This document shows, one piece after another, positions 634-48,935 of a DNA stretch of 64,000 nucleotides. The notes below the pieces were generated by a model. It saw only the letters and a program-made list of their open reading frames with translations. It ran no database searches and was not told the origin of the DNA. Within the stretch, counting starts at the first letter, position 1, and each line of letters begins with the position of its first letter. Source of the DNA: Anadara kagoshimensis (lineage: Eukaryota; Mollusca; Bivalvia; Arcoida; Arcidae); assembly GCA_021292105.1 (NCBI GenBank), contig CM037860.1, forward strand, positions 10,930,698-10,994,697, in the 5' to 3' direction. The position numbers and the translations under genes were made by a program.

Positions 634-3600
634 GTGAGTACTATTTCATTCAAGTACAATGTAATTCATGTACAATGTGATAATCCATAATGACTGTTAG
701 GTAATTAAACTGAATCTTAGGGGAAAAACTTGCCATATTATTGCCTAGTATATTAAACATACCAAATGGATTTAACAGATTTGCACAAATGTTATGTAGA
801 CCACAAGTAAAATTGCATTTTAATTAATTACTTTGTTAAACTGATGTAATGGTAATGGCAATTGAAGATTCCCAATGTAATGGTCTTTTGAAGTTTTCAA
901 TGTAATTGACCTAATATCTGGCATATACGTACATGTACATCAGTAACATGAATGATTCTAAATATAGTCCTTTTCTTCTATACTTCCTAAGTCAAACTTT
1001 ACACCCATGTAGATGTTTACCACATAATAGCGAAACTGCACATAATGGAGTTGAAATTCCAGTTTTCTCTTAAGTACTGTAATAAAGTCAGCACCAATTT
1101 TTAAAAGAGATATTTAATGCAAAAGGTTCATTTTATTGCTAACAGTTATGATTATTTCATTTGTAGGAAGAGACACTTGAAGAAACGGGCTGGAAACTAG
1201 TCCATGGAGATGTATTCAGACCCCCAAAACATACAAAATTGTTAGCATCTCTTATAGGTGCTGGACTACAGATCTTCTTCATGGCATTGATCATTATATG
1301 TGAGTTTCTGTGAATTTTTGTCTTTGGTTGTATGGCAGGCAGATTATGTTTTGTGAATAAGTGTTGTTTATTTGTAATTACATTTTGTGTAATGGTTATT
1401 ATGAGGTGTTTGATTAAAAGAAGTGGAGTTGAGTTTAGTAATGGTGCTTCTTCCCCAGTAAAATTTTTTCACTTTTCTAAAAGCAGTCAGTTCTGGAATG
1501 TTAGAGGATTTTGGAATAATGGAGAAAACCACCAACCACATACAAACTGACAAACTTTCTAAGATATGTATAAGTGGGATTTGAATCTTAGGCAATGAGA
1601 GATGCTGTGATTGTAAGCTTTCTCTTTAGGCCACCACATAGCCCTTGATTAGAAGAGATGGACAAAGCTTGAATAAATTACTGAAAACTGTGAATAAAAA
1701 TCAGTTGGTTGTACGTATCAAAAATATTTTTGACTACATTCTGTATATTAGTTTTATTCTTATACTGTACATGTATATGGAGACATCTAGACAACCTTCT
1801 GTTAAATAATTAATCTGAAATAAGGCCTTTAATCAGTTTTATGTTTTTAACTACATACATATACATATTTCATTGTTGTTTCCAGTTTTCGCCATGTTGG
1901 GTATGTTATCTCCAGCATCAAGAGGGGCACTGATGACAGCAGCTATCTTCCTGTTTGTGTTTATGGGGTATGTACATGTATAACAGAATTACACCTGACA
2001 GAATGGCAAGTTAAGGTCACATAATCTTGTACATTGTTAGCTATTTGATGGAACATTAAACCTTCACCATATCCTTTCTCTAAAAGCTAGGTTTTTATGA
2101 TTCCTGAATAAAGAACATAGAGGTGCCACTTTGTTGCTTTGTCTGTCCATTCCACTTGTTCATTCCTCAATCTGTCCATTATAATTTTTTCCAGATCATA
2201 AAATCAAAACTAATTTATCAACATGAAACTTCATAGGTTGATGGATCTCAATGAGATGTGCAATGTACAAGAATCGTAACTCTCTTTTGCATACTTTAAC
2301 TGCCTTGGTATCAATCCACTCTGGCTGATTCTAGTTTGAGGAAGTTTGTCAGTTTGCTTGCCTAAGGTCAGTTGTTTCCAGGCACTCTGGTTTCCTCCAC
2401 CATCATGGAACTTGCCGTCTTGGTATTAGCCAAATTCTCTTTGATTGGGGTCTAATATACTAGTACTCCATGCCACTCTAAACAGATTGAAAATTTGCTG
2501 AAAGTTACAAACATACTAATCAGTGTGAAATAAAAAATAAAGAACATTGAATCATTTATTTCAGGGTATTAGCTGGATTTTTCTCTGCAAGACTTTATAA
2601 AACAATGAAGGGAAATCAGTGGAAAAAGGCAGCTTTAGAGGTAAATGCATAAACAAACAATTGCAATTTTATTCCATATCACAATTTTGTTTCCAAGAAA
2701 AAGTGGATATGCATGAACCCAATTGACAGAAAGTGCCACTTCAGCTCATTTATTTGTTATACAAATAGAGATATTTAGACGGAACTTACATAGCTTGCTA
2801 TTATCAAAGATCTTATTCATGCAAAGCTGGACTTATTGAACTACAGAAAAGTTCATGCTTTATGCAGATTTAGCAGACTTGAAACAAAGTCATGCATGGA
2901 CATTTATCAGACTGTTTGCGGAGGTCTTTTATGAATCTATGAGCCGCCTCAATCTCAGTGTTTTAACAGTTTCAAAATGTCACTATACTCCCAGTGTCTA
3001 ATAATTTCAAACAGCCACTTTACTCCCAGCATCTAACAGTTTCAAACAGCCACTTTACTCTCAGCATCTAACAGTTTCAAACAGCTACTTCACTCCCAGC
3101 ATCTAACAGTTTTAAACAGCCACCTTACTCTCAGCATCTAACAGTTTCAAACAGCCACTTTACTCTCAGCATCTAACAGTTTTAAACAGCCACTTTACTC
3201 CCAGCATCTAACAGTTTCAAACAGCCACTTTACTCCCAGCATCTAACAGTTTCAAACAGCCACTTTACTCTCAGCATCGAACAGTTTCAAACAGCCACTT
3301 TACTCTCAGCATCTAACAGTTTCAAACAGCCATTTTACTCTCAGCATCTAACAGTTTCAAACAGCCACTTTACTCTCAGCATCTAACAGTTTCAAACAGC
3401 CACTTTACTCTCAGCATCTAACAGTTTCAAACAGCCACTTTACTCCCAGCATCTAACAGTTTCAAACAGCCACTTTACTCCCAGCATCTAACAGTTTCAA
3501 ACAGCCACTTTACTCTCAGCATCTAACAGTTTCAAACAGCCACTTTACTCCCAGCATCTAACAGTTTCAAACAGCCACTTTACTCCCAGCATCTAACAGT

Positions 3601-6600
3601 TTCAAACAGCCACTTTACTCTCAGCATCTAACAGTTTTAAACAGCCACTTTACTCCCAGCATCTAACAGTTTCAAACAGCCACTTTACTCCCAGCATCTA
3701 ACAGTTTCAAACAGCCTCTTTACTCTCAGCATAAACATCTTTAGAGGTAAATGCATAAACAAACAATTGCAATTTTATTCCATATCACAATTTTGTTTCC
3801 AAGAAAAAGTGGATATGCATGAACCCAATTGACAGAAAGTGCCACTTCAGCTCATTTATTTGTTATACAAATAGAGATATTTAGACGGAACTTACATAGC
3901 TTGCTATTATCAAAGATCTTATTCATGCAAAGCTGGACTTATTGAACTACAGAAAAGTTCATGCTTTATGCAGATTTAGCAGACTTGAAACAAAGTCATG
4001 CATGGACATTTATCAGACTGTTTGCGGAGGTCTTTTATGAATCTATGAGCCGCCTCAATCTCAGTGTTTTAACAGTTTCAAAATGTCACTATACTCCCAG
4101 TGTCTAATAATTTCAAACAGCCACTTTACTCCCAGCATCTAACAGTTTTAAACAGCCACTTTACTCTCAGCATCTAACAGTTTCAAACAGCCACTTTACT
4201 CTCAGCATCTAACAGTTTCAAACAGCTACTTTACTCCCAGCATCTAACAGTTTTAAACAGCCACCTTACTCTCAGCATCTAACAGTTTCAAACAGCCACT
4301 TTACTCTCAGCATCTAACAGTTTTAAACAGCCACTTTACTCCCAGCATCTAACAGTTTCAAACAGCCACTTTACTCCCAGCATCTAACAGTTTCAAACAG
4401 CCACTTTACTCTCAGCATCTAACAGTTTCAAACAGCCACTTTACTCTCAGCATCTAACAGTTTCAAACAGCCATTTTACTCTCAGCATCTAACAGTTTCA
4501 AACAGCCACTTTACTCTCAGCATCTAACAGTTTCAAACAGCCACTTTACTCTCAGCATCTAACAGTTTCAAACAGCCACTTTACTCCCAGCATCTAACAG
4601 TTTCAAACAGCCACTTTACTCCCAGCATCTAACAGTTTCAAACAGCCACTTTACTCTCAGCATCTAACAGTTTCAAACAGCCACTTTACTCCCAGCATCT
4701 AACAGTTTCAAACAGCCACTTTACTCTCAGCATCTAACAGTTTTAAACAGCCACTTTACTCCCAGCATCTAACAGTTTCAAACAGCCACTTTACTCCCAG
4801 CATCTAACAGTTTCAAACAGCCACTTTACTCTCAGCATAAACATCTTTAGAGGTAAATGCATAAACAAACAATTGCAATTTTATTCCATATCACAATTTT
4901 GTTTCCAAGAAAAAGTGGATATGCATGAACCCAATTGACAGAAAGTGCCACTTCAGCTCATTTATTTGTTATACAAATAGAGATATTTAGACGGAACTTA
5001 CATAGCTTGCTATTATCAAAGATCTTATTCATGCAAAGCTGGACTTATTGAACTACAGAAAAGTTCATGCTTTATGCAGATTTAGCAGACTTGAAACAAA
5101 GTCATGCATGGACATTTATCAGACTGTTTGCGGAGGTCTTTTATGAATCTATGAGCCGCCTCAATCTCAGTGTTTTAACAGTTTCAAAATGTCACTATAC
5201 TCCCAGTGTCTAATAATTTCAAACAGCCACTTTACTCCCAGCATCTAACAGTTTCAAACAGCCACTTTACTCTCAGCATCTAACAGTTTCAAACAGCTAC
5301 TTCACTCCCAGCATCTAACAGTTTTAAACAGCCACCTTACTCTCAGCATCTAACTTTTTCAAACAGCCACTTTACTCTCAGCATCTAACAGTTTTAAACA
5401 GCCACTTTACTCCCAGCATCTAACAGTTTCAAACAGCCACTTTACTCCCAGCATCTAACAGTTTCAAACAGCCACTTTACTCTCAGCATCTAACAGTTTC
5501 AAACAGCCACTTTACTCTCAGCATCTAACAGTTTCAAACAGCCATTTTACTCTCAGCATCTAACAGTTTCAAACAGCCACTTTACTCTCAGCATCTAACA
5601 GTTTCAAACAGCCACTTTACTCTCAGCATCTAACAGTTTCAAACAGCCACTTTACTCCCAGCATCTAACAGTTTCAAACAGCCACTTTACTCCCAGCATC
5701 TAACAGTTTCAAACAGCCACTTTACTCTCAGCATCTAACAGTTTCAAACAGCCACTTTACTCCCAGCATCTAACAGTTTCAAACAGCCACTTTACTCCCA
5801 GCATCTAACAGTTTCAAACAGCCACTTTACTCTCAGCATCTAACAGTTTTAAACAGCCACTTTACTCCCAGCATCTAACAGTTTCAAACAGCCACTTTAC
5901 TCCCAGCATCTAACAGTTTCAAACAGCCTCTTTACTCTCAGCATAAACATCTTTAGAGGTAAATGCATAAACAAACAATTGCAATTTTATTCCATATCAC
6001 AATTTTGTTTCCAAGAAAAAGTGGATATGCATGAACCCAATTGACAGAAAGTGCCACTTCAGCTCATTTATTTGTTATACAAATAGAGATATTTAGACGG
6101 AACTTACATAGCTTGCTATTATCAAAGATCTTATTCATGCAAAGCTGGACTTATTGAACTACAGAAAAGTTCATGCTTTATGCAGATTTAGCAGACTTGA
6201 AACAAAGTCATGCATGGACATTTATCAGACTGTTTGCGGAGGTCTTTTATGAATCTATGAGCCGCCTCAATCTCAGTGTTTTAACAGTTTCAAAATGTCA
6301 CTATACTCCCAGTGTCTAATAATTTCAAACAGCCACTTTACTCCCAGCATCTAACAGTTTCAAACAGCCACTTTACTCTCAGCATCTAACAGTTTCAAAC
6401 AGCCACTTTACTCTCAGCATCTAACAGTTTCAAACAGCTACTTTACTCCCAGCATCTAACAGTTTTAAACAGCCACCTTACTCTCAGCATCTAACAGTTT
6501 CAAACAGCCACTTTACTCTCAGCATCTAACAGTTTTAAACAGCCACTTTACTCCCAGCATCTAACAGTTTCAAACAGCCACTTTACTCCCAGCATCTAAC

Positions 6601-9600
6601 AGTTTCAAACAGCCACTTTACTCTCAGCATCTAACAGTTTCAAACAGCCACTTTACTTTCGGCATCTAACAGTTTCAAACAGCCATTTTACTCTCAGCAT
6701 CTAACAGTTTCAAACAGCCACTTTACTCTCAGCATCTAACAGTTTCAAACAGCCACTTTACTCTCAGCATCTAACAGTTTCAAACAGCCACTTTACTCCC
6801 AGCATCTAACAGTTTCAAACAGCCACTTTACTCTCAGCATCTAACAGTTTCAAACAGCCACTTTACTCCCAGCATCTAACAGTTTCAAACAGCCACTTTA
6901 CTCCCAGCATCTAACAGTTTCAAACAGCCACTTTACTCTCAGCATCTAACAGTTTTAAACAGCCACTTTACTCCCAGCATCTAACAGTTTCAAACAGCCA
7001 CTTTACTCCCAGCATCTAACAGTTTCAAACAGCCACTTTACTCTCAGCATCTAACAGTTTCAAACAGCCACTTTACTCTCAGCATCTAACAGTTTCAAAC
7101 AGCCACTTTACTCTCAGCATCTAACAGTTTCAAACAGCCACTTTACTCTCAGCATCTAACAGTTTCAAACAGCCACTTTACTCTCAGCATAAACATCTTT
7201 AGAGGTAAATGCATAAACAAACAATTGCAATTTTATTCCATATCACAATTTTGTTTCCAAGAAAAAGTGGATATGCATGAACCCAATTGACAGAAAGTGC
7301 CACTTCAGCTCATTTATTTGTTATACAAATAGAGATATTTAGACGGAACTTACATAGCTTGCTATTATCAAAGATCTTATTCATGCAAAGCTGGACTTAT
7401 TGAACTACAGAAAAGTTCATGCTTTATGCAGATTTAGCAGACTTGAAACAAAGTCATGCATGGACATTTATCAGACTGTTTGCGGAGGTCTTTTATGAAT
7501 CTATGAGCCGCCTCAATCTCAGTGTTTTAACAGTTTCAAAATGTCACTATACTCCCAGTGTCTAATAATTTCAAACAGCCACTTTACTCCCAGCATCTAA
7601 CAGTTTCAAACAGCCACTTTACTCTCAGCATCTAACAGTTTCAAACAGCTACTTTACTCCCAGCATCTAACAGTTTTAAACAGCCACCTTACTCTCAGCA
7701 TCTAACAGTTTCAAACAGCCACTTTACTCTCAGCATCTAACAGTTTTAAACAGCCACTTTACTCCCAGCATCTAACAGTTTCAAACACCCACTTTACTCC
7801 CAGCATCTAACAGTTTCAAACAGCCACTTTACTCTCAGCATCTAACAGTTTCAAACAGCCACTTTACTCTCAGCATCTAACAGTTTCAAACAGCCATTTT
7901 ACTCTCAGCATCTAACAGTTTCAAACAGCCACTTTACTCTCAGCATCTAACAGTTTCAAACAGCCACTTTACTCTCAGCATCTAACAGTTTTAAACAGCC
8001 ACTTTACTCCCAGCATCTAACAGTTTCAAACAGCCACTTTACTCCCAGTATCTAACAGTTTCAAACAGCCACTTTACTCTCAGCATCTAACAGTTTCAAA
8101 CAGCCACTTTACTCTCAGCATCTAACAGTTTCAAACAGCCATTTTACTCTCAGCATCTAACAGTTTCAAACAGCCACTTTACTCTCAGCATCTAACAGTT
8201 TCAAACAGCCACTTTACTCTCAGCATCTAACAGTTTCAAACAGCCACTTTACTCCCAGCATCTAACAGTTTCAAACAGCCACTTTACTCCCAGCATCTAA
8301 CAGTTTCAAACAGCCACTTTACTCTCAGCATCTAACAGTTTCAAACAGCCACTTTACTCCCAGCATCTAACAGTTTCAAACAGCCACTTTACTCCCAGCA
8401 TCTAACAGTTTCAAACAGCCACTTTACTCTCAGCATCTAACAGTTTTAAACAGCCACTTTACTCCCAGCATCTAACAGTTTCAAACAGCCACTTTACTCC
8501 CAGCATCTAACAGTTTCAAACAGCCACTTTACTCTCAGCATAAACATCTTTAGAGGTAAATGCATAAACAAACAATTGCAATTTTATTCCATATCACAAT
8601 TTTGTTTCCAAGAAAAAGTGGATATGCATGAACCCAATTGACAGAAAGTGCCACTTCAGCTCATTTATTTGTTATACAAATAGAGATATTTAGACGGAAC
8701 TTACATAGCTTGCTATTATCAAAGATCTTATTCATGCAAAGCTGGACTTATTGAACTACAGAAAAGTTCATGCTTTATGCAGATTTAGCAGACTTGAAAC
8801 AAAGTCATGCATGGACATTTATCAGACTGTTTGCGGAGGTCTTTTATGAATCTATGAGCCGCCTCAATCTCAGTGTTTTAACAGTTTCAAAATGTCACTA
8901 TACTCCCAGTGTCTAATAATTTCAAACAGCCACTTTACTCCCAGCATCTAACAGTTTCAAACAGCCACTTTACTCTCAGCATCTAACAGTTTCAAACAGC
9001 TACTTTACGCCCAGCATCTAACAGTTTTAAACAGCCACCTTACTCTCAGCATCTAACAGTTTCAAACAGCCACTTTACTCTCAGCATCTAACAGTTTCAA
9101 ACAGCCACTTTACTCCCAGCATCTAACAGTTTCAAACAGCCACTTTACTCTCAGCATCTAACAGTTTCAAACAGCCACTTTACTCTCAGCATCTAACAGT
9201 TTCAAACAGCCATTTTACTCTCAGCATCTAACAGTTTCAAACAGCCACTTTACTCTCAGCATCTAACAGTTTCAAACAGCCACTTTACTCTCAGCATCTA
9301 ACAGTTTCAAACAGCCACTTTACTCCCAGCATCTAACAGTTTCAAACAGCCACTTTACTCCCAGCATCTAACAGTTTCAAACAGCCACTTTACTCTCAGC
9401 ATCTAACAGTTTCAAACAGCCACTTTACTCCCAGCATCTAACAGTTTCAAACAGCCACTTTACTACCCAGCATCTAACAGTTTCAAACAGCCACTTTACT
9501 CTCAGCATCTAACAGTTTTAAACAGCCACTTTACTCCCAGCATCTAACAGTTTCAAACAGCCACTTTACTCCCAGCATCTAACAGTTTCAAACAGCCACT

Positions 9601-12600
9601 TTACTCTCAGCATCTAACAGTTTCAAACAGCCACTTTACTCTCAGCATCTAACAGTTTCAAACAGCCACTTTACTCTCAGCATCTAACAGTTTCAAACAG
9701 CCACTTTACTCTCAGCATCTAACAGTTTCAAACAGCCACTTTACTCTCAGCATAAACATCTTTAGAGGTAAATGCATAAACAAACAATTGCAATTTTATT
9801 CCATATCACAATTTTGTTTCCAAGAAAAAGTGGATATGCATGAACCCAATTGACAGAAAGTGCCACTTCAGCTCATTTATTTGTTATACAAATAGAGATA
9901 TTTAGACGGAACTTACATAGCTTGCTATTATCAAAGATCTTATTCATGCAAAGCTGGACTTATTGAACTACAGAAAAGATCATGCTTTATGCAGATTTAG
10001 CAGACTTGAAACAAAGTCATGCATGGACATTTATCAGACTGTTTGCGGAGGTCTTTTATGAATCTATGAGCCGCCTCAATCTCAGTGTTTTAACAGTTTC
10101 AAAATGTCACTATACTCCCAGTGTCTAATAATTTCAAACAGCCACTTTACTCCCAGCATCTAACAGTTTCAAACAGCCACTTTACTCTCAGCATCTAACA
10201 GTTTCAAACAGCTACTTTACTCCCAGCATCTAACAGTTTTAAACAGCCACCTTACTCTCAGCATCTAACAGTTTCAAACAGCCACTTTACTCTCAGCATC
10301 TAACAGTTTTAAACAGCCACTTTACTCCCAGCATCTAACAGTTTCAAACAGCCACTTTACTCCCAGCATCTAACAGTTTCAAACAGCCACTTTACTCTCA
10401 GCATCTAACAGTTTCAAACAGCCACTTTACTCTCAGCATCTAACAGTTTCAAACAGCCATTTTACTCTCAGCATCTAACAGTTTCAAACAGCCACTTTAC
10501 TCTCAGCATCTAACAGTTTCAAACAGCCACTTTACTCTCAGCATCTAACAGTTTCAAACAGCCACTTTACTCCCAGCATCTAACAGTTTCAAACAGCCAC
10601 TTTACTCCCAGCATCTAACAGTTTCAAACAGCCACTTTACTCTCAGCATCTAACAGTTTCAAACAGCCACTTTACTCCCAGCATCTAACAGTTTCAAACA
10701 GCCACTTTACTCCCAGCATCTAACAGTTTCAAACAGCCACTTTACTCTCAGCATCTAACAGTTTCAAACAGCCACTTTACTCCCAGCATCTAACAGTTTC
10801 AAACAGCCACTTTACTCCCAGCATCTAACAGTTTCAAACAGCCACTTTACTCTCAGCATAAACATCTTTAGAGGTAAATGCATAAACAAACAATTGCAAT
10901 TTTATTCCATATCACAATTTTGTTTCCAAGAAAAAGTGGATATGCATGAACCCAATTGACAGAAAGTGCCACTTCAGCTCATTTATTTGTTATACAAATA
11001 GAGATATTTAGACGGAACTTACATAGCTTGCTATTATCAAAGATCTTATTCATGCAAAGCTGGACTTATTGAACTACAGAAAAGTTCATGCTTTATGCAG
11101 ATTTAGCAGACTTGAAACAAAGTCATGCATGGACATTTATCAGACTGTTTGCGGAGGTCTTTTATGAATCTATGAGCCGCCTCAATCTCAGTGTTTTAAC
11201 AGTTTCAAAATGTCACTATACTCCCAGTGTCTAATAATTTCAAACAGCCACTTTACTCCCAGCATCTAACAGTTTCAAACAGCCACTTTACTCTCAGCAT
11301 CTAACAGTTTCAAACAGCTACTTTACTCCCAGCATCTAACAGTTTTAAACAGCCACCTTACTCTCAGCATCTAACAGTTTCAAACAGCCACTTTACTCTC
11401 AGCATCTAACAGTTTTAAACAGCCACTTTACTCCCAGCATCTAACAGTTTCAAACAGCCACTTTACTCCCAGCATCTAACAGTTTCAAACAGCCACTTTA
11501 CTCTCAGCATCTAACAGTTTCAAACAGCCACTTTACTCTCAGCATCTAACAGTTTCAAACAGCCATTTTACTCTCAGCATCTAACAGTTTCAAACAGCCA
11601 CTTTACTCTCAGCATCTAACAGTTTCAAACAGCCACTTTACTCTCAGCATCTAACAGTTTCAAACAGCCACTTTACTCCCAGCATCTAACAGTTTCAAAC
11701 AGCCACTTTACTCCCAGCATCTAACAGTTTCAAACAGCCACTTTACTCTCAGCATCTAACAGTTTCAAACAGCCACTTTACTCCCAGCATCTAACAGTTT
11801 CAAACAGCCACTTTACTCCCAGCATCTAACAGTTTCAAACAGCCACTTTACTCTCAGCATCTAACAGTTTTAAACAGCCACTTTACTCCCAGCATCTAAC
11901 AGTTTCAAACAGCCACTTTACTCCCAGCATCTAACAGTTTCAAACATCTTTAGAGGTAAATGCATAAACAAACAATTGCAATTTTATTCCATATCACAAT
12001 TTTGTTTCCAAGAAAAAGTGGATATGCATGAACCCAATTGACAGAAAGTGCCACTTCAGCTCATTTATTTGTTATACAAATAGAGATATTTAGACGGAAC
12101 TTACATAGCTTGCTATTATCAAAGATCTTATTCATGCAAAGCTGGACTTATTGAACTACAGAAAAGTTCATGCTTTATGCAGATTTAGCAGACTTGAAAC
12201 AAAGTCATGCATGGACATTTATCAGACTGTTTGCGGAGGTCTTTTATGAATCTATGAGCCGCCTCAATCTCAGTGTTTTAACAGTTTCAAAATGTCACTA
12301 TACTCCCAGTGTCTAATAATTTCAAACAGCCACTTTACTCCCAGCATCTAACAGTTTCAAACAGCCACTTTACTCTCAGCATCTAACAGTTTCAAACAGC
12401 CACTTTACTCTCAGCATCTAACAGTTTTAAACAGCCACTTTACTCTCAGCATCTAACAGTTTCAAACAGCCACTTTACTCCCAGCATCTAACAGTTTCAA
12501 ACAGCCACTTTACTCCCAGCATCTAACAGTTTCAAACAGCCGCTTTACTCCCAGCATCTAACAGTTTCAAACAGCCACTTTACTCTCAGCATCTAACAGT

Positions 12601-15600
12601 TTCAAACAGCCACTTTACTCCCAGCATCTAACAGTTTCAAACAGCCACTTTACTCCCAGCATCTAACAGTTTCAAACAGCCACTTTACTCCCAGCATCTA
12701 ACAGTTTCTATATATGTCTAGATTTTCTTTCTTTTGTTTTTACAGACTGCAATGGTTTATCCTGGATTGGTGTTTGGAATTTGTTTTTTCTTAAACTTCT
12801 TTATTTGGGGAAAACATTCATCAGGAGCAGTAAGTATATGTATATATATCCACAGTGGATATAGACCATACGGAAAGACAATTTAGTTAAACTATAGAAC
12901 ATGTACATGCTTGTGCATGTACAATATTTATAAAATATTATAAGTCTGTTTAACTTAAAATTGCATACATGTCTGTTGAATAATATGATGTGGATGAGAA
13001 ATAATTCTGGGAGTTGTATTTTTTTATGACAAAAAATCTGATTGCTTTTACAAATTATATTGCTCTTGAACCATGCTTTTTAAAAATAAAGCATTTTGTA
13101 TATTTTACAAGATAGGGTCGATATTTTTATCACACTTGTCAGATATATTGAACAAAAACTTTGGCATCATTTTGTCTATCTGAAGTATGTATGACTAATT
13201 TCTTAATATATGTTTGATATACTGACAACATATTACACAACCATAGTCATTATCATGATTTCTTTTTTGTAATTTGTAGGTTCCCTTCACGACAATGTTG
13301 GCATTGTTATGTATGTGGATTGGTATTTCAACACCCTTGGTTTTCCTAGGTTATTTCTTTGGATTCAGAAAACAGGTATGTCCAGATGCTAATAATTTTA
13401 CATTAAATTAAAGTAATAATTGTAAACAATGTAAAATAAGAGAAAAGAAATATAAATTTACATTTCAATACTTGTTACTTTGATAAAGTCAGTTACTGGA
13501 ACTTAAAAAATACATTATAAGTTATACAGGTGTTTTGCAGGCTACATAACATCATGTACTCTGTGAAAGATTTTTGCACACTGAGTGGTAGGTTTACAGT
13601 AACTATACTTTTGTGATGTATGAGGTTCTTCCCTTTTACCACTAAAAATCACATGTGCTTTTAAGCCCAAATACTGTGAAATCATTAATTTTCGTTGGGT
13701 CCAATTTTCGTGGAATCGGTAAAAAATAACATTTCGTTGGGACGTAAATTCGTGGTTTTACTGTTATGTCAAAAATGTAGTTTGTCCTTTGAGCCTTGAT
13801 AACGGGTAGGAAGTCATGCTTTGTTTGTTTATCGGCACCTATAGAAAAAGTTATTTGTTGAAATAAGAAAGCAATAAACCGTGACAGAGACGCGGATTAA
13901 TGACTAAGTCTCGGATAGGCGCTAATTACCTGTAATCATTATATCAGTAACAATTAACTACACAAGCGATGTGACACCTGGCCTGAGTAGATCTACCTGT
14001 TACGTTGTACAAATAACCGGTAATTAATTTAGATTTAAAAGTTTATGCATAGAACATCAATCACAACGTGTTTTATAATCACTTTACACGAAACTGAATG
14101 TTTTTCTGTGACATCGGCAACTTTATAAAAATTCTAATTATTGACCTCTGATGACCTAATCAGCTGTTTACGAGAGTAACAATGGCGGCTCTTACCGATT
14201 CGAATGAAGTTTCGTTTTTTAGAAATCAAACAGCTGACTTAATAATAATAATAATGGTAATAATAAATATAAAACAGGTTTATAGAGATTGTTAAAATGT
14301 TTATTTAATTAATATGTAATCGGATTGGAATTTAAATGAGACGGGTCATAATTGATGATGAAAGTTACGGTTAGAAACCTGTCTGTCCCTATCGTCCCGA
14401 CCAGTTCCTAATTGAAAACAAACATTTAAAAAATTAATGAAGAATTTATTAAACATAATATATGTACTTAAATAATTTTCATAATTAAATTAAACATCCA
14501 CGCATCTTTACCTTGTGAAAAGTTTGTGTTTATGTGCGAGTTACGCTAGAGCAAAAAATATGGTACATATATGCATGTCCATTAGTTATCATATATCTTG
14601 TCTTTTTACTTGAGGTTAATACTTCGTGGTGGTCGTAAATTCGTGGTTCAGACTGTCCACTAAAACCACGAAAATTGATCCCCAACGAAAATTAATGATT
14701 TCACAGTAGATTTATGAACATGGTTCCATTTATTCTGGCAAATTAAACAATTGCTATGAGAGAAATGTTTTTGATAGGTGACAATAAATGCTTGTCAGTA
14801 AAGAAATATTAAGAGAATAATGATTGTAAAACATTTGATTATTTAATTATTGTAGCCATATGAACATCCAGTAAGAACCAATCAGATACCAAGACAAGTA
14901 CCAGAACAGATGTGGTATATGAATCCATATTTAGGGTTAGTATTTACAATTGTTATACAGTACATGCCATCATTGTAATCACATCATTCGTTTGTCAGTC
15001 AGCATTACTGAAATAATAAGTTACTAAAATCTTCAAACCTTTATTTTTAAATTAATTTTATTTTCCCAAAGGAATTTCTATTAAGGTTTTTATGTTAAAT
15101 TATTCCATAAACTATGAAAAAGTTGAAGAAAATTGAATGTCCAAATTACTATTTTACTGGGAAATTACATATGGCTAATGTTAAGAAGGAATGTCTTATA
15201 AGAAATAAGGAAGATTCTTTACATAGAAATAAAACACAATTACTTGACTCATAAAGAATTTTTATCTGCTTAATATGGTCAATGCTAACACAAAAGAATG
15301 CTACACAATGTGTTGCATACCATATGTAGATCAAAGTCACAAAGTCAAATCCTATTTGGGTGGGTAGGGGTTATTTAGCTCTCAAGAGAAGGTTCTATAT
15401 ACATGTAGTATTATATTAATTAATATTTTATCAATTATTTTTGTCATTTCAGAGTTATAATGGCGGGTATTTTACCATTTGGTGCTATGTTTATAGAACT
15501 TTTTTTCATTTTTACTGTAAGTATACTTAGTTTTGACTTTAGTATGTGGGATTCACCATGTCTGTCTATGTGTCTGTAAAATTGTGTCAGCTCCATAATG

Positions 15601-18600
15601 TTATGTGTCAATGGATTCCATCAAACTTGACACAACAGGGATTTTTCTGGGTATCCACAGGGTCCGGTAAAGGGACCCATTCCCAATGCAAAAAAACATA
15701 CATTATTCCCAATTCTGTAGTAAAAAATTCCCAATTAGCTACGTTTATCAATTTTTTGAAGAAAAAAATAAAAATCACAAGAGCATCAAAATCATATTCG
15801 GAGGATATCTCTTTCTGATAACGATTTCGCTCTATATTAACCCACATTTTGCTAAATGATTTATATAGAGACAAAGGGGACAGCCCTATTTTGCTGTGAA
15901 ACCGATATAATTTGTTCAATTACCAGTATTCTAGTGGTCTAGAATTTCTAATATGTTGTTGTGATTTTTCCCAAAATTACATTTTTGTTGAGCATTTTCC
16001 CAATTTCATCCCAAGGTCCTTTTCCCAAAAAGGTCAGAAAAATCCCTGCACAAATGTACATACCAACATGACAGGATGTATCCATTTGTTGGGTTGGCTG
16101 TGTCAAGTACAGGTTTTTAGTTGCAAGTAAATTCCTAAAGACATTCTGGTTGGACTGAATTTATTATCTCATTAGATAAACATAACTGTACCAAACTAAC
16201 TGAATATTATGGAAGCTGTCTATTATTCAGATTAAACCATATCGATAATAAGTCATTTGTTTCACTTAGCTTGTATCAATTGCATGGATTTAGAGAAGAA
16301 TGACTGAGATTGAATCTTGAATTTTGTCTGAATGACCTTGAAAACCCTAAAAAAAGCCTTGAATTTTTATACCATATACATGTACCTGTGAGAACCCTGT
16401 TTACAAATCTCAAAACAATTGCTAAACCAATTAGTTTACAAAACAGGCATTGTTGAAACATACTTTATGTTTTATATATATTGAATAGTCTATCTGGTTT
16501 ATCTAAGAAAAATATGATCGGCATGAAAATAAACCAAGTTAAAAAAAGAAGTGAAACCTTACCTCTTAATTATAATAAACATGTACGAAAGAGCTATTAC
16601 ATGTATATACGGCTGTTGCATTATTAACATTTGCATGTACCTGTCTATAAAGGCCACTCAAGGGGACCAGTAAAACTGACCTTTATGGACAGGTAATGAC
16701 TTTTGATTCAAGTCTAATTTAGATTTTATGTTTCTATTTTAGGCTATTTGGGAAAACCAGTTTTATTATTTATTTGGTTTCCTGTTTCTAGTATTTATAA
16801 TTTTGATAATCTCAGTATCACAAATATCAGTTGTTATGGTGTATTTCCAGTTGTGTGGAGAGGTAAGTTATCTTTCTTTTCATAAGTAACATTTTCTTTC
16901 CAGTATAGACTTACCACTATGGTAGCTCAGTTTGTAGATTGCATACTCCATATGTGAGAGGTTGTGGGTTTGAAGCCTGGCCAAGTCCGACCAAGACTTG
17001 AATATAGGTAGCGACTGTTCTTTCGCCAAACAATTGGCATTTGTAAATTAGTCACAGGGTCCTTGAGAAGATACCTTAAAAACCAATGTCCCATCTCAAT
17101 GGCAGGCATCGCATGTAAAAGACCACTCTCTCTTCACATTGCCCTGAGCATACTGCAAAAGTAAAAAATTCTGCCACTTCACCCACAGCTGGTGATGTCT
17201 CAATATAAGCAAAATATTCTTAACTGGGATGTAAAACCCATTCAATCAATCAAATATTGATAACATTTTTTTTCTAAAATAAACTTAAAGAATTTGTCAC
17301 TATGGTAATGCCAAATAGATAAATCTTGACCAAAAATCCATTTATACTGTTAACTGCTCTATTTAGTGCAAAAATCATCCATTGGAATCTTCTTGAACCC
17401 AAACATAAATCTCTTTATTTATAATATCCACTGAAACAAACCTTCAAGTAGTGGAAATCCCCTGTTCATAGACAAGTTTCAGGTTAATTTTTGTCTAGCA
17501 TATGGGTCATTATGGGAAATGTAAAAATCGTAAGAAACTCTGAATAAAACTCTTACAAATGTTTGTTTCTACTTTCAACTAATCAGTCTAATAGACGATT
17601 ATATTGCAAGCCCCATACACATGATTTTGATTTATAAGATTAATTCAATTTAACATTTGATATTTTTTGTTGTTTTAGGATTACCACTGGTGGTGGCGGT
17701 CGTTCATAGTTTCAGGAGGATCAGCTGTTTATGTATTGGCATACTCTGTGTTTTACTTTGTAACCAAGGTGAGTGTTGTTTGTAATTTGTAGCATCTTGT
17801 GTTATAACATCAGTTAAAGTTTGACATGGCTCCTACTTTTTAGATGTCAACAATAATATTTGCATAGAATATGTTAAGCCTACCTTTTCATCAACACTTG
17901 ATAATAGAATTAATTAGTTATAAATCCCTGGAATAAGAATGTTTTAAAAGAATAAAACAATAATGGTCTTAATTATACCTCAGTTTATGATACTTCAATT
18001 TGATTTGCCTATAATAGGTCACGTGTCATTAGATAAATAATCATATTTACCGTTGAAATCATGATGATTGTCTTTTCTCCAAAAACCTTCATATCACTCT
18101 CTGGAACCCTTTATATATCCTACTGTGTACCCTTCATATCACCCTCTGACTTTGTCAAATCCTTTGAATACGTAGTGCAATAATGAAATGTTCCGAAGTG
18201 TTCCAAATGTGTATCTATGTACAACAACAATGGTGGCATCAAGCAGTGCCGTCTGATCGACGATGCAGAAATGGACATCCATCTGCACAAAAAAAGATCT
18301 AAGAATACTGACAAACGCTGAAGGCAGAGTCCAAGTTTGATATAACTTGTCTCAGGTTGTCAAATTTTCATATCGCACCAAAACAAGGGCAATAATTGTA
18401 TAATATGTACATACATGTATCTTGATTTTCAGCTTGCTGAATGAAGTAAAGACAAACTTATGTTCTATCTACAATTAGAATGTCCAATATTAAGATAATT
18501 TATTTGATGATTCATATAATTATATAATTTCTTTTGATGAAAGTACCTTAGAGGCAGAGTGGTCTAAAGCGCCTTTATGGATCTTGGCACATGTTACCAA

Positions 18601-19061
18601 CTAGGTTTGAATCCCACTTGTTACAGATCCTAATGTGAGAACGTTGGTCAGTTTTTTTGCTGAAGGCCGGTGGTTTTCCTTTGACACTAGTTTTTCCTCC
18701 ATCTCTGACTTGATTGACTCAATGTAAGTGAAAAAATCTTGACTTGGGCATTCCACTTCATTCTATTGATGAAAAAAAGTAGGTTTTTTTATGGAATCTA
18801 TGTGTTATTCCTCTAACATATCGTGTTAACAAGAACATTTGCAATCCTCATTTTGTTACACTTAATATATTTTCATTAATAACTTATGATGGTTTGTTGT
18901 TTTATTTTCAGCTTGAAATCACAGGATTTATACCTACTTTATTGTACTTTGGTTACACACTTTTAATGGTATTGACATTCTGGATCCTAACTGGTACAGT
19001 AGGATTCTATGCAGCATATATGTTTATAAGGAAGATTTATGGAGCTATCAAGATTGATTGA
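563..19061 (+). CDS. TM9SF4: TM9SF4 orthologue, C-terminal half (11 exons, partial at 5' end)
   Basis: Nonaspanin (TM9 superfamily) multi-pass membrane protein of the Golgi/endosomal system; in other animals and Dictyostelium (Phg1) the family works in phagocytosis, adhesion and sorting of membrane proteins. Exons: 563-633, 1167-1299, 1886-1967, 2565-2640, 12746-12829, 13280-13375, 14856-14935, 15453-15516, 16743-16862, 17679-17768, 18912-19061. All have AG acceptors and GT donors and join in frame to about 348 residues, against about 640 for the full protein. The window begins at the end of TM1 and covers TM2-TM9. Diagnostic segments are [68 protein letters not shown] and [20 protein letters not shown], which follow TM9SF4 more closely than TM9SF1, 2 or 3. 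The C-terminus KIYGAIKID fits the family's KxD/E COPI-binding signal. No frameshift or internal stop was seen. The N-terminal lumenal part lies outside the window. Confidence 0.95.
1167..1299 (+). CDS. TM9SF4: TM9SF4 exon: cytosolic loop and TM2
   Basis: Begins [20 protein letters not shown] and continues into the hydrophobic [14 protein letters not shown]. The acceptor is TTTGTAG and the donor TATAT/GTGAGT. It ends one base into a codon (phase 1), which the next exon completes. Confidence 0.95.
1886..1967 (+). CDS. TM9SF4: TM9SF4 exon: TM2-TM3
   Basis: Reads [19 protein letters not shown] then IFLFVFMG. The acceptor is TTTCCAG and the donor ATGGG/GTATGT. The SPxxRGALMT motif is a family hallmark. 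Confidence 0.95.
2130..2300 (+). repeat. Dispersed-repeat fragment (GTCTGTCC type)
   Basis: Resembles the sequences at 15546-15635 and 21465-21600: GTCTGTC-rich head, then a segment of the type 'ACATGAAACTTCATAGG'. Family not identified. Confidence 0.4.
2310..2535 (+). mobile_element. Truncated SINE fragment
   Basis: The segment with TTGTCAGTTTGCTTGCC and TGGTTTCCTCCACCATC aligns by eye with the body of the SINE at 18548-18775. The tRNA-like head is missing. It is followed by an A-rich tail just before exon 4 of the window. Confidence 0.5.
2565..2640 (+). CDS. TM9SF4: TM9SF4 exon whose 3' border was copied into the satellite
   Basis: Reads [19 protein letters not shown] then KKAALE. The acceptor is TTTCAG and the donor TTTAGAG/GTAAAT. 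Its last 8 bases (CTTTAGAG) and the following intron start recur eight more times in the intron downstream. Confidence 0.95.
2641..12709 (+). repeat. Higher-order intronic satellite: nine 1.1-1.35 kb units built from a 35-bp monomer
   Basis: Each unit starts GTAAATGCATAAACAAAC, runs through a near-invariant spacer of about 315 bp, then a tandem run of a 35-bp monomer (CATCTAACAGTTTCAAACAG followed by CCACTTTACTCYCAG). Unit starts are 2641, 3747, 4853, 5959, 7205, 8556, 9768, 10874 and 11956; the last is partial and runs to 12709. Unit lengths are 1106, 1106, 1106, 1246, 1351, 1212, 1106 and 1082 bp, so most differences are multiples of 35. I estimate about 200 monomers. The first two monomers of each unit are degenerate. 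The array fills the intron to within 36 bp of the next exon. The monomer length is not a multiple of 3 and includes TAA, so it is not coding. Confidence 0.97.
3739..11961 (+). other. Eight duplicated copies of the exon 4 splice donor inside its own intron
   Basis: CTTTAGAG/GTAAATGCAT, identical to the exon 4 border at 2633-2650, recurs with the GT at 3747, 4853, 5959, 7205, 8556, 9768, 10874 and 11956. The preceding bases are AAACAT instead of the exon's GGCAG, which places the duplication breakpoint inside the last 8 exon bases. Seven junctions read CTCAGCATAAACAT before the copy; the last reads CAGTTTCAAACAT. Confidence 0.95.
12746..12829 (+). CDS. TM9SF4: TM9SF4 exon: TM4
   Basis: Reads [19 protein letters not shown] then IWGKHSSGA. 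The acceptor is a strong TTTTGTTTTTACAG lying only 36 bp after the satellite ends. The donor is GCA/GTAAGT. Confidence 0.95.
13280..13375 (+). CDS. TM9SF4: TM9SF4 exon: TM5
   Basis: 32 codons reading [17 protein letters not shown] then [15 protein letters not shown]. The acceptor is TTTGTAG and the donor CAG/GTATGT. Both borders are phase 0. Confidence 0.95.
13674..14706. mobile_element. MITE with about 40-bp terminal inverted repeats and TA target site
   Basis: The left end begins CTGTGAAATCATTAATTTTC and continues GTTGGG...CAATTTTCGTGG; the right end is its inverted counterpart ending GATTTCACAG at 14706. TA flanks both ends (13672-13673, 14707-14708), the mariner/Tc1-type target. It is 1033 bp with no transposase ORF, so non-autonomous. 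It lies in the intron between the exons ending 13375 and starting 14856. Confidence 0.9.
14856..14935 (+). CDS. TM9SF4: TM9SF4 exon: conserved RTNQIPRQ loop
   Basis: Reads [18 protein letters not shown] then MWYMNPYL. The acceptor is ATTGTAG and the donor TTAGG/GTTAGT, a slightly weak donor. It ends in phase 2. Confidence 0.95.
15453..15516 (+). CDS. TM9SF4: TM9SF4 exon: TM6
   Basis: Reads [20 protein letters not shown] then T. The acceptor is TTTCAG and the donor ACT/GTAAGT. Confidence 0.95.
15546..16130 (+). repeat. Dispersed repeat split by a MITE insertion
   Basis: The parts flanking the MITE (15546-15635 and 16054-16130) carry the TGTCTGTCTATGTGTCTG and CATGACAGGATGTATCC type sequence of a family also seen at 21465-21720. 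Another piece with GCTCTCAAGAGA lies at 15350-15395 and has its match at 21655-21700. Confidence 0.45.
15636..16048. mobile_element. 413-bp MITE with CAGGGATTTTTCTG termini
   Basis: Terminal inverted repeats CAGGGATTTTTCTG...CAGAAAAATCCCTG, with similar subterminal GGTCC/TTCCC motifs. A 5-bp CACAA duplication flanks both ends (15631-15635, 16049-16053). The ends look hAT-like, but most hAT elements make 8-bp duplications, so the superfamily is uncertain. Reading frames across it are not genes. Confidence 0.85.
16743..16862 (+). CDS. TM9SF4: TM9SF4 exon: TM7
   Basis: 40 codons reading [20 protein letters not shown], then a hydrophobic stretch ending [11 protein letters not shown]. The acceptor is ATTTTAG and the donor GAG/GTAAGT. 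Phase 0 at both ends. Confidence 0.95.
16917..17254 (+). mobile_element. Full-length tRNA-derived SINE
   Basis: The head has an A box (GGTAGCTCAGTTTGTAGA) and a B box (GGGTTTGAAGCC) spaced as in a tRNA. The body continues through ACATTGCCCTGAGCATACTG to the tail TATTCTTAACTGGGATG and ATTCAATCAATC. It is the best preserved member of its family here and lies in the TM9SF4 intron 16863-17678. Confidence 0.85.
17679..17768 (+). CDS. TM9SF4: TM9SF4 exon: TM8
   Basis: 30 codons beginning [19 protein letters not shown] and ending YFVTK. The acceptor is GTTTTAG and the donor AAG/GTGAGT. The EDY-WWWR element is strongly conserved in the family. Confidence 0.95.
18548..18775 (+). mobile_element. SINE with Leu/Ser-tRNA-like head
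   Basis: The A box region GGCAGAGTGGTCTAAAGCG resembles a tRNA-Leu/Ser head and the B box is GGTTTGAATCCC. The body matches the fragment at 2310-2535, and the tail has TTGACTTGGGCATTCC. Located in the last TM9SF4 intron. Confidence 0.75.
18912..19061 (+). CDS. TM9SF4: TM9SF4 terminal exon: TM9, KxD tail and stop
   Basis: 49 codons beginning [20 protein letters not shown] and ending [10 protein letters not shown], followed by TGA. The acceptor is ATTTTCAG. The lysine-rich tail carries the KID form of the KxD/E COPI motif. Confidence 0.95.
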
Positions 19062-19490
19062 TGGAATTATTACTGTAAAATCTAGTGTAGGGTTGAATAT
19101 TTAAATATCATGGATGTCCAGATTTTTGCAAGTGGGATTATTATATAAGTTATTGGGTATTTAGAGGTAGAAGAGCTGTTGAAATGAGTGGTTCACATAA
19201 CATTTTTGTATAATTTTCAGTATAATAATATTCTATAAATTTCAGTATGGCTACTTTCAGGTTTTTTTAATAGCAAATTTCACAATATCACAACAGATCC
19301 TTACAAGTTGGTTTTGTACTTAAGTCAAATTGCCAACTTGGAAGATTTTTTATCAGCTTGTATAGACTGGTTACCTACAGGTGAGAATGAGTGCCTTCCT
19401 TGATTGCTTTCTGGGTCAGTGTAATGGTTTGGCATACAAATCTGAAACATTGGAAGGCACTGTAGGTCAGAGCACATTACAAGTGATGTG

Positions 19491-19905
19491 GGTGCACCAC
19501 ATCTTAACTTGATATTAGAAGACTTCACAAGTTTTGTAGATTCACCACATCTCAACTTGAAATTAGAACACTTCACAAGTTTTGCAGGGCACCACATCTC
19601 AACTTGAAATTAGAACACTTCACAAGTTTTGTAGGGGCACCACATATCAACTTGAAATTAGAACACTTCACAAGTTTTGTAGGGCACCACATCTCAACTT
19701 GAAATTAGAACACTTCACAAGTTTTGTAGGGGCACCACATCTCTACTTGAAATTAGAACACTTCACAAGTTTTGTAGGGGCACCACATATCAACTTGAAA
19801 TTAGAACACTTCACAAGTTTTGTAGGGGCACCACATATCAACTTGAAATTAGAACACTTCACAAGTTTTGTAGGGGCACCACATATCAACTTGAAGATTA
19901 GAGTA
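19491..19905 (+). repeat. 48-bp minisatellite in the TM9SF4 3' UTR
   Basis: Eight to nine units of 47-48 bp (GGGGCACCACATATCAACTT followed by GAAATTAGAACACTTCACAA and GTTTTGTA). The commonest unit is 48 bp, 16 codons, so an open frame with a 16-residue repeat (GAPHINLKLEHFTSFV) appears at 19582-19923. It sits after the TM9SF4 stop and has no ATG context suggesting translation; I treat it as non-coding. Confidence 0.9.
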
Positions 19906-23420: not shown

Positions 23421-23630
23421 GTAGCTGACAGTATTGTTAAGTGTGATGTCTCCGCGTCCAGGATGTATTTGATATCCCACAATTCCATGTTTCTTTCACT
23501 CTAAATTGGCAGGTAAAGTTACCTAACCGGAGGTGCTTACCCTTCCGGAGCACTTGGCATCACTTTCTTGATGGAAGTTCAAGAGTTTAACCTAATTTTT
23601 CAGTTCATAAGTTTTAACTTTGCTTTGGGA
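23421..23630 (+). mobile_element. RT-element tail (3' end) fragment
   Basis: Aligns with the sequence after the RT genes at 43005-43245 and 45000-45215: remains of the RT C-terminus (TCCGCGTCCAGGATGTA), then the tail with GGAGGTGCTTACCCTTCCGG, GCACTTGGCATCACTTTC and a CTTTGCTTTGGGATTGTGA end. The RT body is missing, as in a 5'-truncated insertion. Confidence 0.75.
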
Positions 23631-24275
23631 TTGTGATGTGGACATGGATTAGTATGTTTGTTTTTACTTTGATATGGGATTTTGATTTAGACATGGATTA
23701 ATATGTCTGTATTTACTTTGCTTTTGGATTATGATTTGGATATGGATTAGTATGTTTGTTTTTACTTTGCTATGGGATTGTGTTTTAGTTTGCTTTGGGA
23801 TTGTGATTTTGACATGGATTAGTATTTTTGTTTTTACTTTGCTATGGAATTGTGATTTGGACATTGATTAGTATGTTTGGTTTTACTTTGCTATGGGATT
23901 GTGATTTTGACATGGATTAGTATGTTTGGTTTTACTTTGCTATGGAATTGTGATTTGGACATTGATTAGTATGTTTGGTTTTACTTTGCTATGGGATTGT
24001 GATTTTGACATGGATTAGTATGTTTGGTTTTACTTTGCTATGGGATTGTGATTTTGACATGGATTATGTCTGTTTTTACTTTGCTATGGTATTGTGATTT
24101 TGACATGGATTAGTATGTTTGTTTTTACTTAGCTTTGGGATTGTGATTTTAACATGGATTAGTATGTTTGGTTTTACTTTGCTATGGGATTGTGATTTGG
24201 ACATGGATTAGTATGTTTGATTTTACTTTGCTATGGGATTGTGATTTGAACATGGATTAGTATGTTTGGTTTTTG
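23617..24275 (+). repeat. 49-bp minisatellite expanded from the RT-element tail
   Basis: About 13 units of TTTTACTTTGCTATGGGATT then GTGATTTTGACATGGATTAG and TATGTTTGG. The spacing of the AGTATGTTTG motif is 49 bp (23651, 23700, 23749, 23870). One interval is 72 bp because of an internal partial duplication. The unit equals the last bases of the RT-element tail found single-copy elsewhere (43195-43240). Confidence 0.9.
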
Positions 24276-24689: not shown

Positions 24690-25867
24690 AACTACAGACA
24701 GTTGCGTTTCCTTACTAAAGAAATCGGCACTAATCTTGCTTGATCTTTTATTCCTTCCAGAGAATCATACATGAACTTTGGAATGTGGTCTGAAAAGAAA
24801 ACAATGGTTTTTTTTTCATCCATATTTGACATAAATCCTTGAACACTGTAGAAAACAACCAAACAAACATCTCTTGTACGAAAACCTATACGGGTCACAT
24901 AAAAAATCGAAATACGTAGTAACGCATCTCAAATACGAAATCGATTTCGTAGTAGAAGAACTTGTTTTTACCTGAAAACATGCATTACAATTCAACAACC
25001 GGTAGAACTAATAATGCCACAAATGAAAATTATGGGGCCTTCGAAAGAGACCCTAAGCACCAAAGTTCCGTGTCACAGTAGGCGTGCCACGTTAAAAATC
25101 CTTCCCTCTCATTGCCCTGGGCACACTGCAAATGAATAAAAAGTGCAAGTTCACCTATAGCATGTATAGCTTGAGGCGTCTCGATATTAGTGAAATATTC
25201 ATGACTGGGAGGTAAACCCTATTCAATCAATCGATCCTATGAAGCAGTCGGGTAAAATGTACCGATCTCGAGATTCTTTCAAATAAATATCATAGTGATT
25301 AGTTTAGTGATGGTGTCAATTTTTGAATGTAATCATAAAATACATTCAAAATGGTATATGATTGTAATACAGGGATACCAACCTTCGGCAAGCGACCTGA
25401 CCTTTTGTTTTAATTTTGCACCTGGATCTGCTCGAGTAGGATTTGGAAGTGAACGAGAAAACTGACTATCTGGATAATAAAGCCACGAAGAGCATGCGTA
25501 ACACTGAAAAAAAGAAAGTCTAGTATTACGAATTATGGTCATGGTTAACATCTTCCATATACAAAAATAACACTCAAATAGCAGTTTTTACACTTCAATA
25601 TAGTATACTACTTCCTTTTAGAAATGAAGCTTCTGCAATGATTTTTAATATCAAGAACGCAAAATAAAAATCTGTCAAATAAACATTTGAAATTACCAGG
25701 GAAAGATGACCGAGATGTTCTTTTAAGAGTGTAAATGCATTAAAACAAGCGTTTAGACGTACAGTACAGACCTGTCGGAAGTTGAAACACTGATCTAACG
25801 AAAATGAGTCGAAATACGACTGTCGAGTGGCCGATATATGGATAGATAGTGAATGAAAAGTTTCCAA
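24690..25867 (-). other. Possible minus-strand exon cluster, unidentified
   Basis: Three minus-strand segments begin after good acceptors: TTTCTTTTTTTCAG/TGTTACGCATGC at about 25508 (reads CYACSSWLYYPDSQFSRSL...), TGCATGTTTTCAG/GTAAAAAC at about 24977 (VKTSSSTTKSISYLRCV...), and TTGTTTTCTTTTCAG/ACCACATTCC at about 24794 (one frame gives HIPKFMYDSLEGIKDQARL..., stop near 24702). A donor-like CGACAG/GTCTGT lies near 25770. Local GC is higher than around it. A CYAC start could suggest a Ly6-type exon, but the phases do not give one convincing protein. A SINE fragment sits in the presumed intron. Could be chance. Confidence 0.25.
25034..25236 (+). mobile_element. 5'-truncated SINE
   Basis: Lacks the tRNA head. 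The body CTCATTGCCCTGGGCACACTG and the tail GTCTCGATATTAGTGAAATA, TTCATGACTGGGAGG and TATTCAATCAATC match the SINE at 16917-17254. Confidence 0.75.
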
Positions 25868-42192: not shown

Positions 42193-43060
42193 TAAATCAT
42201 TTGATTTTTCTACACTATACACCACTATCCCTCATTCTAAATTGAAAGAATGTTTTAAAGAAATTATTCACTTGTCTTTCTTTTACAAAAACGGTAAGCC
42301 AAGATACAAATATTTTGTGTTGAACAGGGATTCTGGTTATTTTGTCAAGCATCATACGGATTCTAAACAAAAATATACTGATGATACAATCAACAAAATG
42401 TTGGAGTTTTTGATAGATAACATATTTGTTGTGTTTGGTAATATAGTTTTTCAGCAAACAATCGGTATACCAATGGGTACAAACTGTGCACCATTGCTTG
42501 CTGATTTGTTTCTTTATTCTTATGAGGCAGAATTTATGCAGAATCTTGTTAAATCTGGAGAGAAGGCTGTCGCCAAATCATTCAACTCAACATAGAGATA
42601 TATAGATGACGTTCTGTCTCATAACAATCCTAAATTTGGAGACTATGTGAATGGCATCTATCCTAGTGAGCTTGAAATAAAAGACACGACTGATTCCTCA
42701 AGTTCTGCTTCATATTTAGACTTATACCAGAATTATGACGCACACGAAAGGCTACTTTATTACAAACATGATGACTTCAATTTTTCTATTGTCAACTTTC
42801 CTTTTTTATGCAGCAATATACCTGCTTCTCTTGCTTATGGTGTATTTGTTTCCTAACTAAGACGCTATGGTAGAGGTTGTTTCCACTACGTGGTCTTTGT
42901 ACAACGAAGTAGGCTGCTTACAAATAAATTGTTGATCCAGTGATATTGCAAGCCTAGGCTTCGAAAAGTTTTATGTCCGTCATCACAGTATTGTTAATAA
43001 GTTTCTCTGTGTCCAGGATTGCCCTGGATATATATGACGTCTCATAGTGCCATGTTTCTT
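42193..43060 (+). pseudogene. Reverse transcriptase of a probable Penelope-like element, copy 1 (dead)
   Basis: RT motif A is FDFSTLYTTIPH, motif B GIPMGTNCAPLLADLF and motif C YIDDV. Other conserved blocks are KMLEFLIDNIFVVFGNIVFQ, YPSELEIKDTTDSSSSASYL, DDFNFSIVNFPFLCSNIPAS and LAYGVFVS. A TAG stands one codon before RYIDDV (42593-42595), a further TAA follows AYGVFVS near 42855, and frame is lost later, so it cannot give a full protein. Only the palm and thumb part is present; no N-terminal part or GIY-YIG endonuclease was seen. The family call rests on the YIDD motif and on the frequent inverted neighbouring copies; other RT clades are not excluded. Confidence 0.75.
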
Positions 43061-43245
43061 TCACACAATTTTGATTACACACGTGGCGGGTGTAGCTAGC
43101 TAAATAGGAGGTGCTTACCCTCCGGAACGCTTGGCTTCACTTCCCTGGTGGAAGTTCACGTGTCTAACCTGACTTGTCAGTTCCAAAGTTTTTACTTTGC
43201 TTCTGGACTGTGATTCGGACATGGATTAGTATGTTTGTTTTTGAT
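43061..43245 (+). mobile_element. RT-element 3' tail, copy 1
   Basis: The conserved tail begins TTTTGATTACACACGTGGCG, continues GTAGCTAGCTAAATAGGAGG, TGCTTACCCTCCGGAACGC and GGTGGAAGTTCACGTGTC, and ends ACTTTGCTTCTGGACTGTGA, TTCGGACATGGATTAGTATG. It is the reference form for the fragments listed elsewhere. Confidence 0.8.
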
Positions 43246-43329
43246 TTGTACTTATATAATCAACAAATAAATAAAAAAGTAGATAAATAATATCAAACTA
43301 AATACAAACCACTTTATTGACACAAACCA

Positions 43330-45060: not shown

Positions 45061-45215
45061 GGGTGTAGCTAGCTAAACCGGGGGTGCTTACCCTTCTGGA
45101 GCAACCGGACTCACTTCCCCGGTTGAAGTTTACGCGTCTAACCTAACTTGTCAGTTCCAAAGTTTTTACTTTGCTTCTGGATTGTGAGTCTGACTTGGAT
45201 AGTATGTTTGTTTTT
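45030..45215 (+). mobile_element. RT-element 3' tail, copy 2
   Basis: TTTTGATTACACACGTGGCG, GGGTGTAGCTAGCTAAACCG, GGGGTGCTTACCCTTCTGG and the end TTTTTACTTTGCTTCTGGAT, TGGATAGTATGTTTG. Confidence 0.8.
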
Positions 45216-45219
45216 ATTA

Positions 45220-48754: not shown

Positions 48755-48935
48755 CAATTTTGATTACACACATGACGGATGTAGCTAGCTCAACATGAGG
48801 TGCTTACACTTCAAAAGCACCATGCCTCACTTACACGGCGGAAGTTCTCGTTTTCCATCTAATTTGCCAGCTTTGAAAATTTTACTTTGCTTTGGGATTG
48901 ATGTTTGACATGGATTAATATGTTTGGATTTGATT
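48755..48935 (+). mobile_element. Solitary RT-element tail
   Basis: CAATTTTGATTACACACATG, GATGTAGCTAGCTC, GAGGTGCTTACAC, AGCACCATGCCTCAC and TTTGACATGGATTAATATG. No RT coding sequence precedes it. Confidence 0.7.

Follow-up and report, generated by a model that had tools for sequence, protein, structure and literature searches.

The third modelled intron of a TM9SF-type gene in the bivalve Anadara kagoshimensis lies in a 64,000-nt stretch of contig CM037860.1 (assembly GCA_021292105.1, positions 10,930,698–10,994,697, forward strand; hereafter the window, whose own coordinates are used throughout). Most of this 10,105-nt intron is occupied by a nine-unit higher-order tandem repeat, each unit of which begins with the end of the upstream exon and its 5′ splice site (donor), so that eight extra donors, hereafter decoys, stand in the intron. 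The array would be the product of a minisatellite-borne duplication and the decoys passengers of its recent expansion, nearly or wholly silent in splicing; as a joint account, this is probable on the features of the DNA described below.

The gene model comprises ten exons (1167–19061, + strand), joined in frame into a 324-aa product with a terminal stop. The EMP70 profile PF02990 matches this product with E=1.4e-128 at profile positions 239–517 of 517, which assigns the gene to the EMP70/TM9SF family; as the match begins only at position 239, the model lacks the gene's 5′ part, and the intron counted here as the third is numbered 4 in an earlier note on this DNA. The paralogue is presumably TM9SF4. 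A search of the 324-aa product against solved structures gave no match. The host exon (2565–2640, 76 nt, + strand) ends in GCT TTA GAG, directly followed by the true donor, and is supported by the frame-preserving join to 12746 and by the EMP70 match of the product; the next modelled exon (12746–12829, 84 nt, + strand) has the acceptor TCTTTCTTTTGTTTTTACAG in front. The earlier note had placed both exon boundaries correctly, and the reading frame is kept across the join. The array-bearing intron (2641–12745) compares with 450–1,480 nt for the eight other modelled introns. Two further repeats touch this gene: a 48-bp tandem repeat of ~8.9 copies (19479–19902), which begins 418 bases past the stop codon and possibly lies inside the 3′ untranslated region, and a dispersed ~200-bp repeat, found inside an intron (17057–17251) and downstream of the gene (25034–25232), the two copies being 69% identical.

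Each unit of the array consists of a non-satellite head of ~330 nt followed by 35-bp monomers, and opens with the 18-mer CTTTAGAGGTAAATGCAT, composed of the exon end and donor motif (CTTTAGAG/GTAAATGCAT; true site at 2633–2650). The 18-mer has nine copies on the + strand, at the first bases of the nine units, and none on the − strand of the window. The units, all on the + strand, are: unit 1, 2633–3738 (1106 nt), with the true exon end and donor; unit 2, 3739–4844 (1106 nt; decoy GT at 3747); unit 3, 4845–5950 (1106 nt; GT at 4853); unit 4, 5951–7196 (1246 nt; GT at 5959); unit 5, 7197–8547 (1351 nt; GT at 7205); unit 6, 8548–9759 (1212 nt; GT at 8556); unit 7, 9760–10865 (1106 nt; GT at 9768); unit 8, 10866–11947 (1082 nt; GT at 10874); and unit 9, 11948–12708 (761 nt; GT at 11956), which continues into the intron's own 3′ end. 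The eight decoy GTs are exactly those listed in the earlier note. Eight of the nine 330-nt heads are identical, and the seventh has a single mismatch, at head position 220; this identity is far above chance expectation. Tandem Repeats Finder (TRF) reports the 35-bp period across 2964–12708 (+ strand), with listed monomer variants, the consensus TCTAACAGTTTCAAACAGCCACTTTACTC[CT]CAGCA, and the satellite broken up by the eight copied heads. No dispersed family of this satellite is seen in the window, the best ungapped match outside the array being 21/35 bases; an exact satellite 31-mer is absent from the prokaryote and viral contigs searched, which is uninformative for animals.

Units differ from each other chiefly by whole monomers gained or lost, plus a few private changes. 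These differences bear on the possibility that the array was collapsed, expanded or misjoined during assembly. Long tandem arrays are often misassembled, and the assembled copy number may be wrong; still, units with differing numbers of monomers, private variants and more than one type of junction do not look like one unit repeated by error, and an assembly artefact is very unlikely.

The joints between the units record how the donor was copied. At 11948, the junction reads TCTAACAGTTTCAAACA-T-CTTTAGAGG, with a monomer on the left and the exon end on the right; the 3′ end of unit 8 thus carries the undeleted form AAACA-T-CTTTAGAG. The satellite monomer itself continues GCCACTTTACTC, hence CTTTA is common to the monomer and the exon end, the joint may lie anywhere within CTTTA, and only GAG (3 nt) is certainly exonic. 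That the unit begins at the exon edge, as the earlier note had it, therefore stands, while its "last 8 bases" of the exon are only the maximum. The joint is the same at the seven other junctions, but 11 nt (CTAACAGTTTC) are missing there, which also explains why the spacing discussed below is seen at seven of the eight decoys. Judging from these two forms, the 11948 junction is probably the older one, and the other seven are probably descendants of a single copy that carried the deletion.

The array anatomy thus supports what had been proposed, a tandem duplication whose left breakpoint lies at the exon edge and whose product was amplified into nine units. An ancestral intron of ~0.8 kb would already have contained a short minisatellite of 35-bp monomers. 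Tandem duplication, perhaps aided by the common CTTTA, would then have fused a monomer to the exon edge, the duplicated piece starting with the last 3–8 exon bases and the donor and ending within the satellite; unequal exchange would have multiplied this piece into nine units while keeping its copies near-identical. Unit 9 together with the last 37 nt of the intron makes an intron of ~790 nt, inside the range of the eight other introns of the gene, and a fair guess from these lengths is that this was the ancestral state. Duplication at a short shared sequence and unequal exchange suffice to explain the array, the order of events being our reconstruction.

Selection keeping the donors was considered as a reason for their identity and finds no support. 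A count by eye gives 10 private changes for the satellite against 1 for the heads (a pair of neighbouring changes within one monomer taken as a single change, a one-base insertion included, and changes in at least two units omitted), and under a uniform rate the probability of one or fewer in the heads is 0.12. With one difference per 2,970 head bases, nine-fold identity over 18 bases is uninformative: the 18-mers are identical because the whole head is near-identical, and the identity of the donors needs no selection.

According to the earlier note, the spliceosome has to choose among nine equal donors. The motifs are indeed equal, but nine equal choices find no support: only the first donor closes an exon of 76 nt that has an acceptor of its own; the first decoy as an exon end would give a 1,182-nt exon, and read-through into the intron (GTA AAT GCA TAA) meets a stop at the fourth codon. 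When two identical strong donors were placed in minigenes under exon definition (365-nt flanking introns), all five minigenes spliced from the upstream donor and none from the other (PMC9225289); the introns flanking the host exon are 597 and 10,105 nt. From this arrangement we infer that the first donor would be used, since it alone closes an exon of normal size, and that the 10.1-kb intron would be removed from 2641 to 12745. Decoy use seems unlikely on the same grounds, and where it did occur it would presumably yield premature stops and transcripts lost via mRNA decay.

A decoy could be used only together with an acceptor before it. The acceptor-like CTTTACTCTCAG does lie 17 nt before seven of the eight decoys, as the earlier note observed, but the same 12-mer occurs 88 times, all within the array. 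A designed microexon was accordingly rejected as the cause of the 17-nt spacing, which is simply the end of the last satellite monomer. The suggested 17-nt microexon would shift the frame and also contains an in-frame TAG (CAT AAA CAT CTT TAG AG) and would be a poison exon. Pairing each decoy with every AG within 600 nt upstream (50, 50, 50, 49, 50, 50, 50, and 50, respectively) gives 399 trial cassettes, of which a single one, of 18 nt at 11956, is both open and in frame; its acceptor falls in the weak TAACAG class (matrix mean −18.1, best −7.6), and none of the 399 is open, a multiple of three, and preceded by a real acceptor. Longer in-frame cassettes are closed as well, since the sequence read backward in frame from the donor contains a TAA, which lies 15 nt before the end at seven decoys (TAA ACA TCT TTA GAG) and 24 nt before it at 11956.

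This leaves cassettes that destroy the message. Satellite acceptors and decoy donors might produce low-level pseudoexons, with mRNA decay and a gene output falling with copy number. Nearly all monomers carry putative splicing motifs, CTAAC-like and pyrimidine-CAG. Exons of 52 and 67 nt at seven decoys (and of 112 nt at three), as well as of 28 and 43 nt at 11956, are internally open but throw the message out of frame into a stop further on; the remaining cassettes, one excepted, contain a stop themselves. The satellite acceptors, however, are weak by the acceptor matrix: in leave-one-out scoring, the ten real acceptors of the gene reach 2.6 to 13.1, while TCTCAG sites (n=113) have a mean of −5.1 and TCCCAG sites (n=93) a mean of −5.7, the best score in these two classes being −1.2; among the 12 AG classes listed across the array, the top score is that of one ATTTAG at −0.06. 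Another AG stands 15 nt upstream in 113/113 TCTCAG and 83/93 TCCCAG sites; in front of the gene's ten real acceptors, the nearest AG lies at a distance of 20–78 nt. Given also that the donors show no sign of selection, poison exons of this kind appear very unlikely judging from the array's motifs.

The decoys might alternatively act as recursive, dual-specific sites: once the true donor is spliced to a decoy AG, the same donor is restored, so that the intron would be removed stepwise and the mRNA left unchanged. The earlier note thought this conceivable, and one half of the idea stands: AG|GT is present within a long intron at all eight decoys, and zero-length splicing keeps the frame. The other half, a good acceptor before AG|GT, is missing by the small acceptor matrix. 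The decoy acceptor (..CATAAACATCTTTAGAG|GT) scores −13.4 at seven decoys, a value reached or exceeded by 71% of 310 background intronic AGs in the gene, and −4.1 at 11956 (19% of 310); the upstream pyrimidines number 9/17 and 10/17, respectively, and a further AG lies 2 nt upstream at 8/8 decoys. In human UBC, tandem AGGT sites act as both donor and acceptor, and dual sites that are used tend to be weaker than single ones (PMC10809524); hence, the low acceptor scores are not decisive, and stepwise removal keeps a slender probability. Like the UBC units, those described here are tandem and each supplies AG|GT; the UBC units are ubiquitin monomers whose sites are used (PMC10809524), whereas here they are intronic, with stops and poor acceptors. 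The AG|GT within a long intron also resembles Drosophila ratchet points (PMC8605326); those, however, are highly conserved and, where tested, constitutively recognised (PMC8605326), while the decoys have weak acceptors. All in all, it is very improbable, from the site scores, that the eight AG|GT copies form a self-made ladder of recursive sites. If they did, an intron growing by donor duplication would gain the stepping stones for its own removal, and its length changes would cost the mRNA nothing.

The closest known system is intron 18 of human ABCA7, where a 25-bp variable-number tandem repeat that includes the exon-18 donor has about 12 to 427 units, with alleles up to 10.7 kb, and where the donor one unit downstream is used at 2 ± 1%, with a frameshift and independently of array length (PMC5954066). 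In both cases a tandem repeat starts at the exon's donor at the beginning of the intron, the unit carries the host donor GT, and many similar donors follow the true one. The array is thus of the ABCA7 kind, a kind already known, of which kilobase units with a nested satellite are a variant. Unlike ABCA7, with 25-bp units and decoys 25 nt apart, the units are 1.1 kb long with a nested 35-bp satellite, and the decoys 1.1 kb apart; also, the ABCA7 unit as described there starts at GT, whereas 3–8 exon bases are copied here. Splicing has been measured for ABCA7, while that of the Anadara kagoshimensis array is predicted from its DNA. Among the matches listed from open PMC papers, which leave the subscription literature mostly outside, neither this locus nor any array of kilobase units with a host donor in them is described. 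In the Rogers model, tandem duplication of AGGT leads to intron gain (told in PMC4974935; also PMC2891723), and tandem repeats at exon–intron boundaries can create introns (PMC2812944). As in that model, an AG|GT-bearing segment has been duplicated here, creating a new formal donor and acceptor; unlike in it, an existing intron has been enlarged, and a new intron is not evident.

Several observations weigh against silent decoys. The donor itself scores well, GAG|GTAAAT being equalled by 0.8% of 388 background intronic GTs (by a small matrix built from eight other donors of the same gene). The rule for donor choice derives from human data and minigenes and is transferred here to another animal; within that source (PMC9225289), weakening both donors (GAG/guguca) led mainly to exon skipping in the larger constructs, the smaller ones keeping the upstream donor, and human events mostly favoured the downstream donor until filtered for near-equal strength, when an upstream preference emerged. 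The acceptor matrix is made from ten sites, and since the gene is AT-rich it penalises C; with pyrimidines simply counted, the satellite acceptors have about 11/17 and are on a par with the weaker real ones (10–11), although 17% of 299 background AGs do as well. Lastly, exon 19 of ABCA7 is skipped more often when the array is longer (PMC5954066). As array length there alters the splicing of the downstream exon, "silent" is perhaps too strong a word for the decoys.

Whichever way the decoys behave, the locus is a natural test of duplicated donors: nine donors with ~320 nt of near-identical sequence downstream, differing mainly upstream, ~1.1–1.35 kb apart. RNA showing the first donor only would support cross-exon donor choice in an unstudied animal; use of the decoys would connect the growth of a satellite with splicing or with the removal of an intron in steps. 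Taken as bare DNA, the array is a curiosity having a human precedent.

Other repeats were also seen in the window, which as a whole gives no Rfam match at gathering scores and no tRNA by tRNA scan. A 145-bp satellite occupies 33288–35404 (about 14.7 copies, 91% matches). The unit of a 49-bp tandem repeat (23611–24273) resembles single stretches at ~32000–32054, 43188–43248, 45162–45216, 48879–48931, and 55560–55611 (83–89% identity); this array perhaps arose by expansion of a dispersed element's end. An element of ~1 kb is found at 42263–43242, 44264–45220, and 55556–56491, two + strand copies each matching one − strand copy at 77–78%. By their motifs, open reading frames in the + strand copies look like broken pieces of a putative reverse transcriptase, but four open reading frames between 42146 and 59684 have no Pfam match. 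Finally, 50590–53069 and 54681–58684 share five collinear stretches on the same strand, about 69–74% identical, and may represent either an ancient tandem duplication or a single element present twice.

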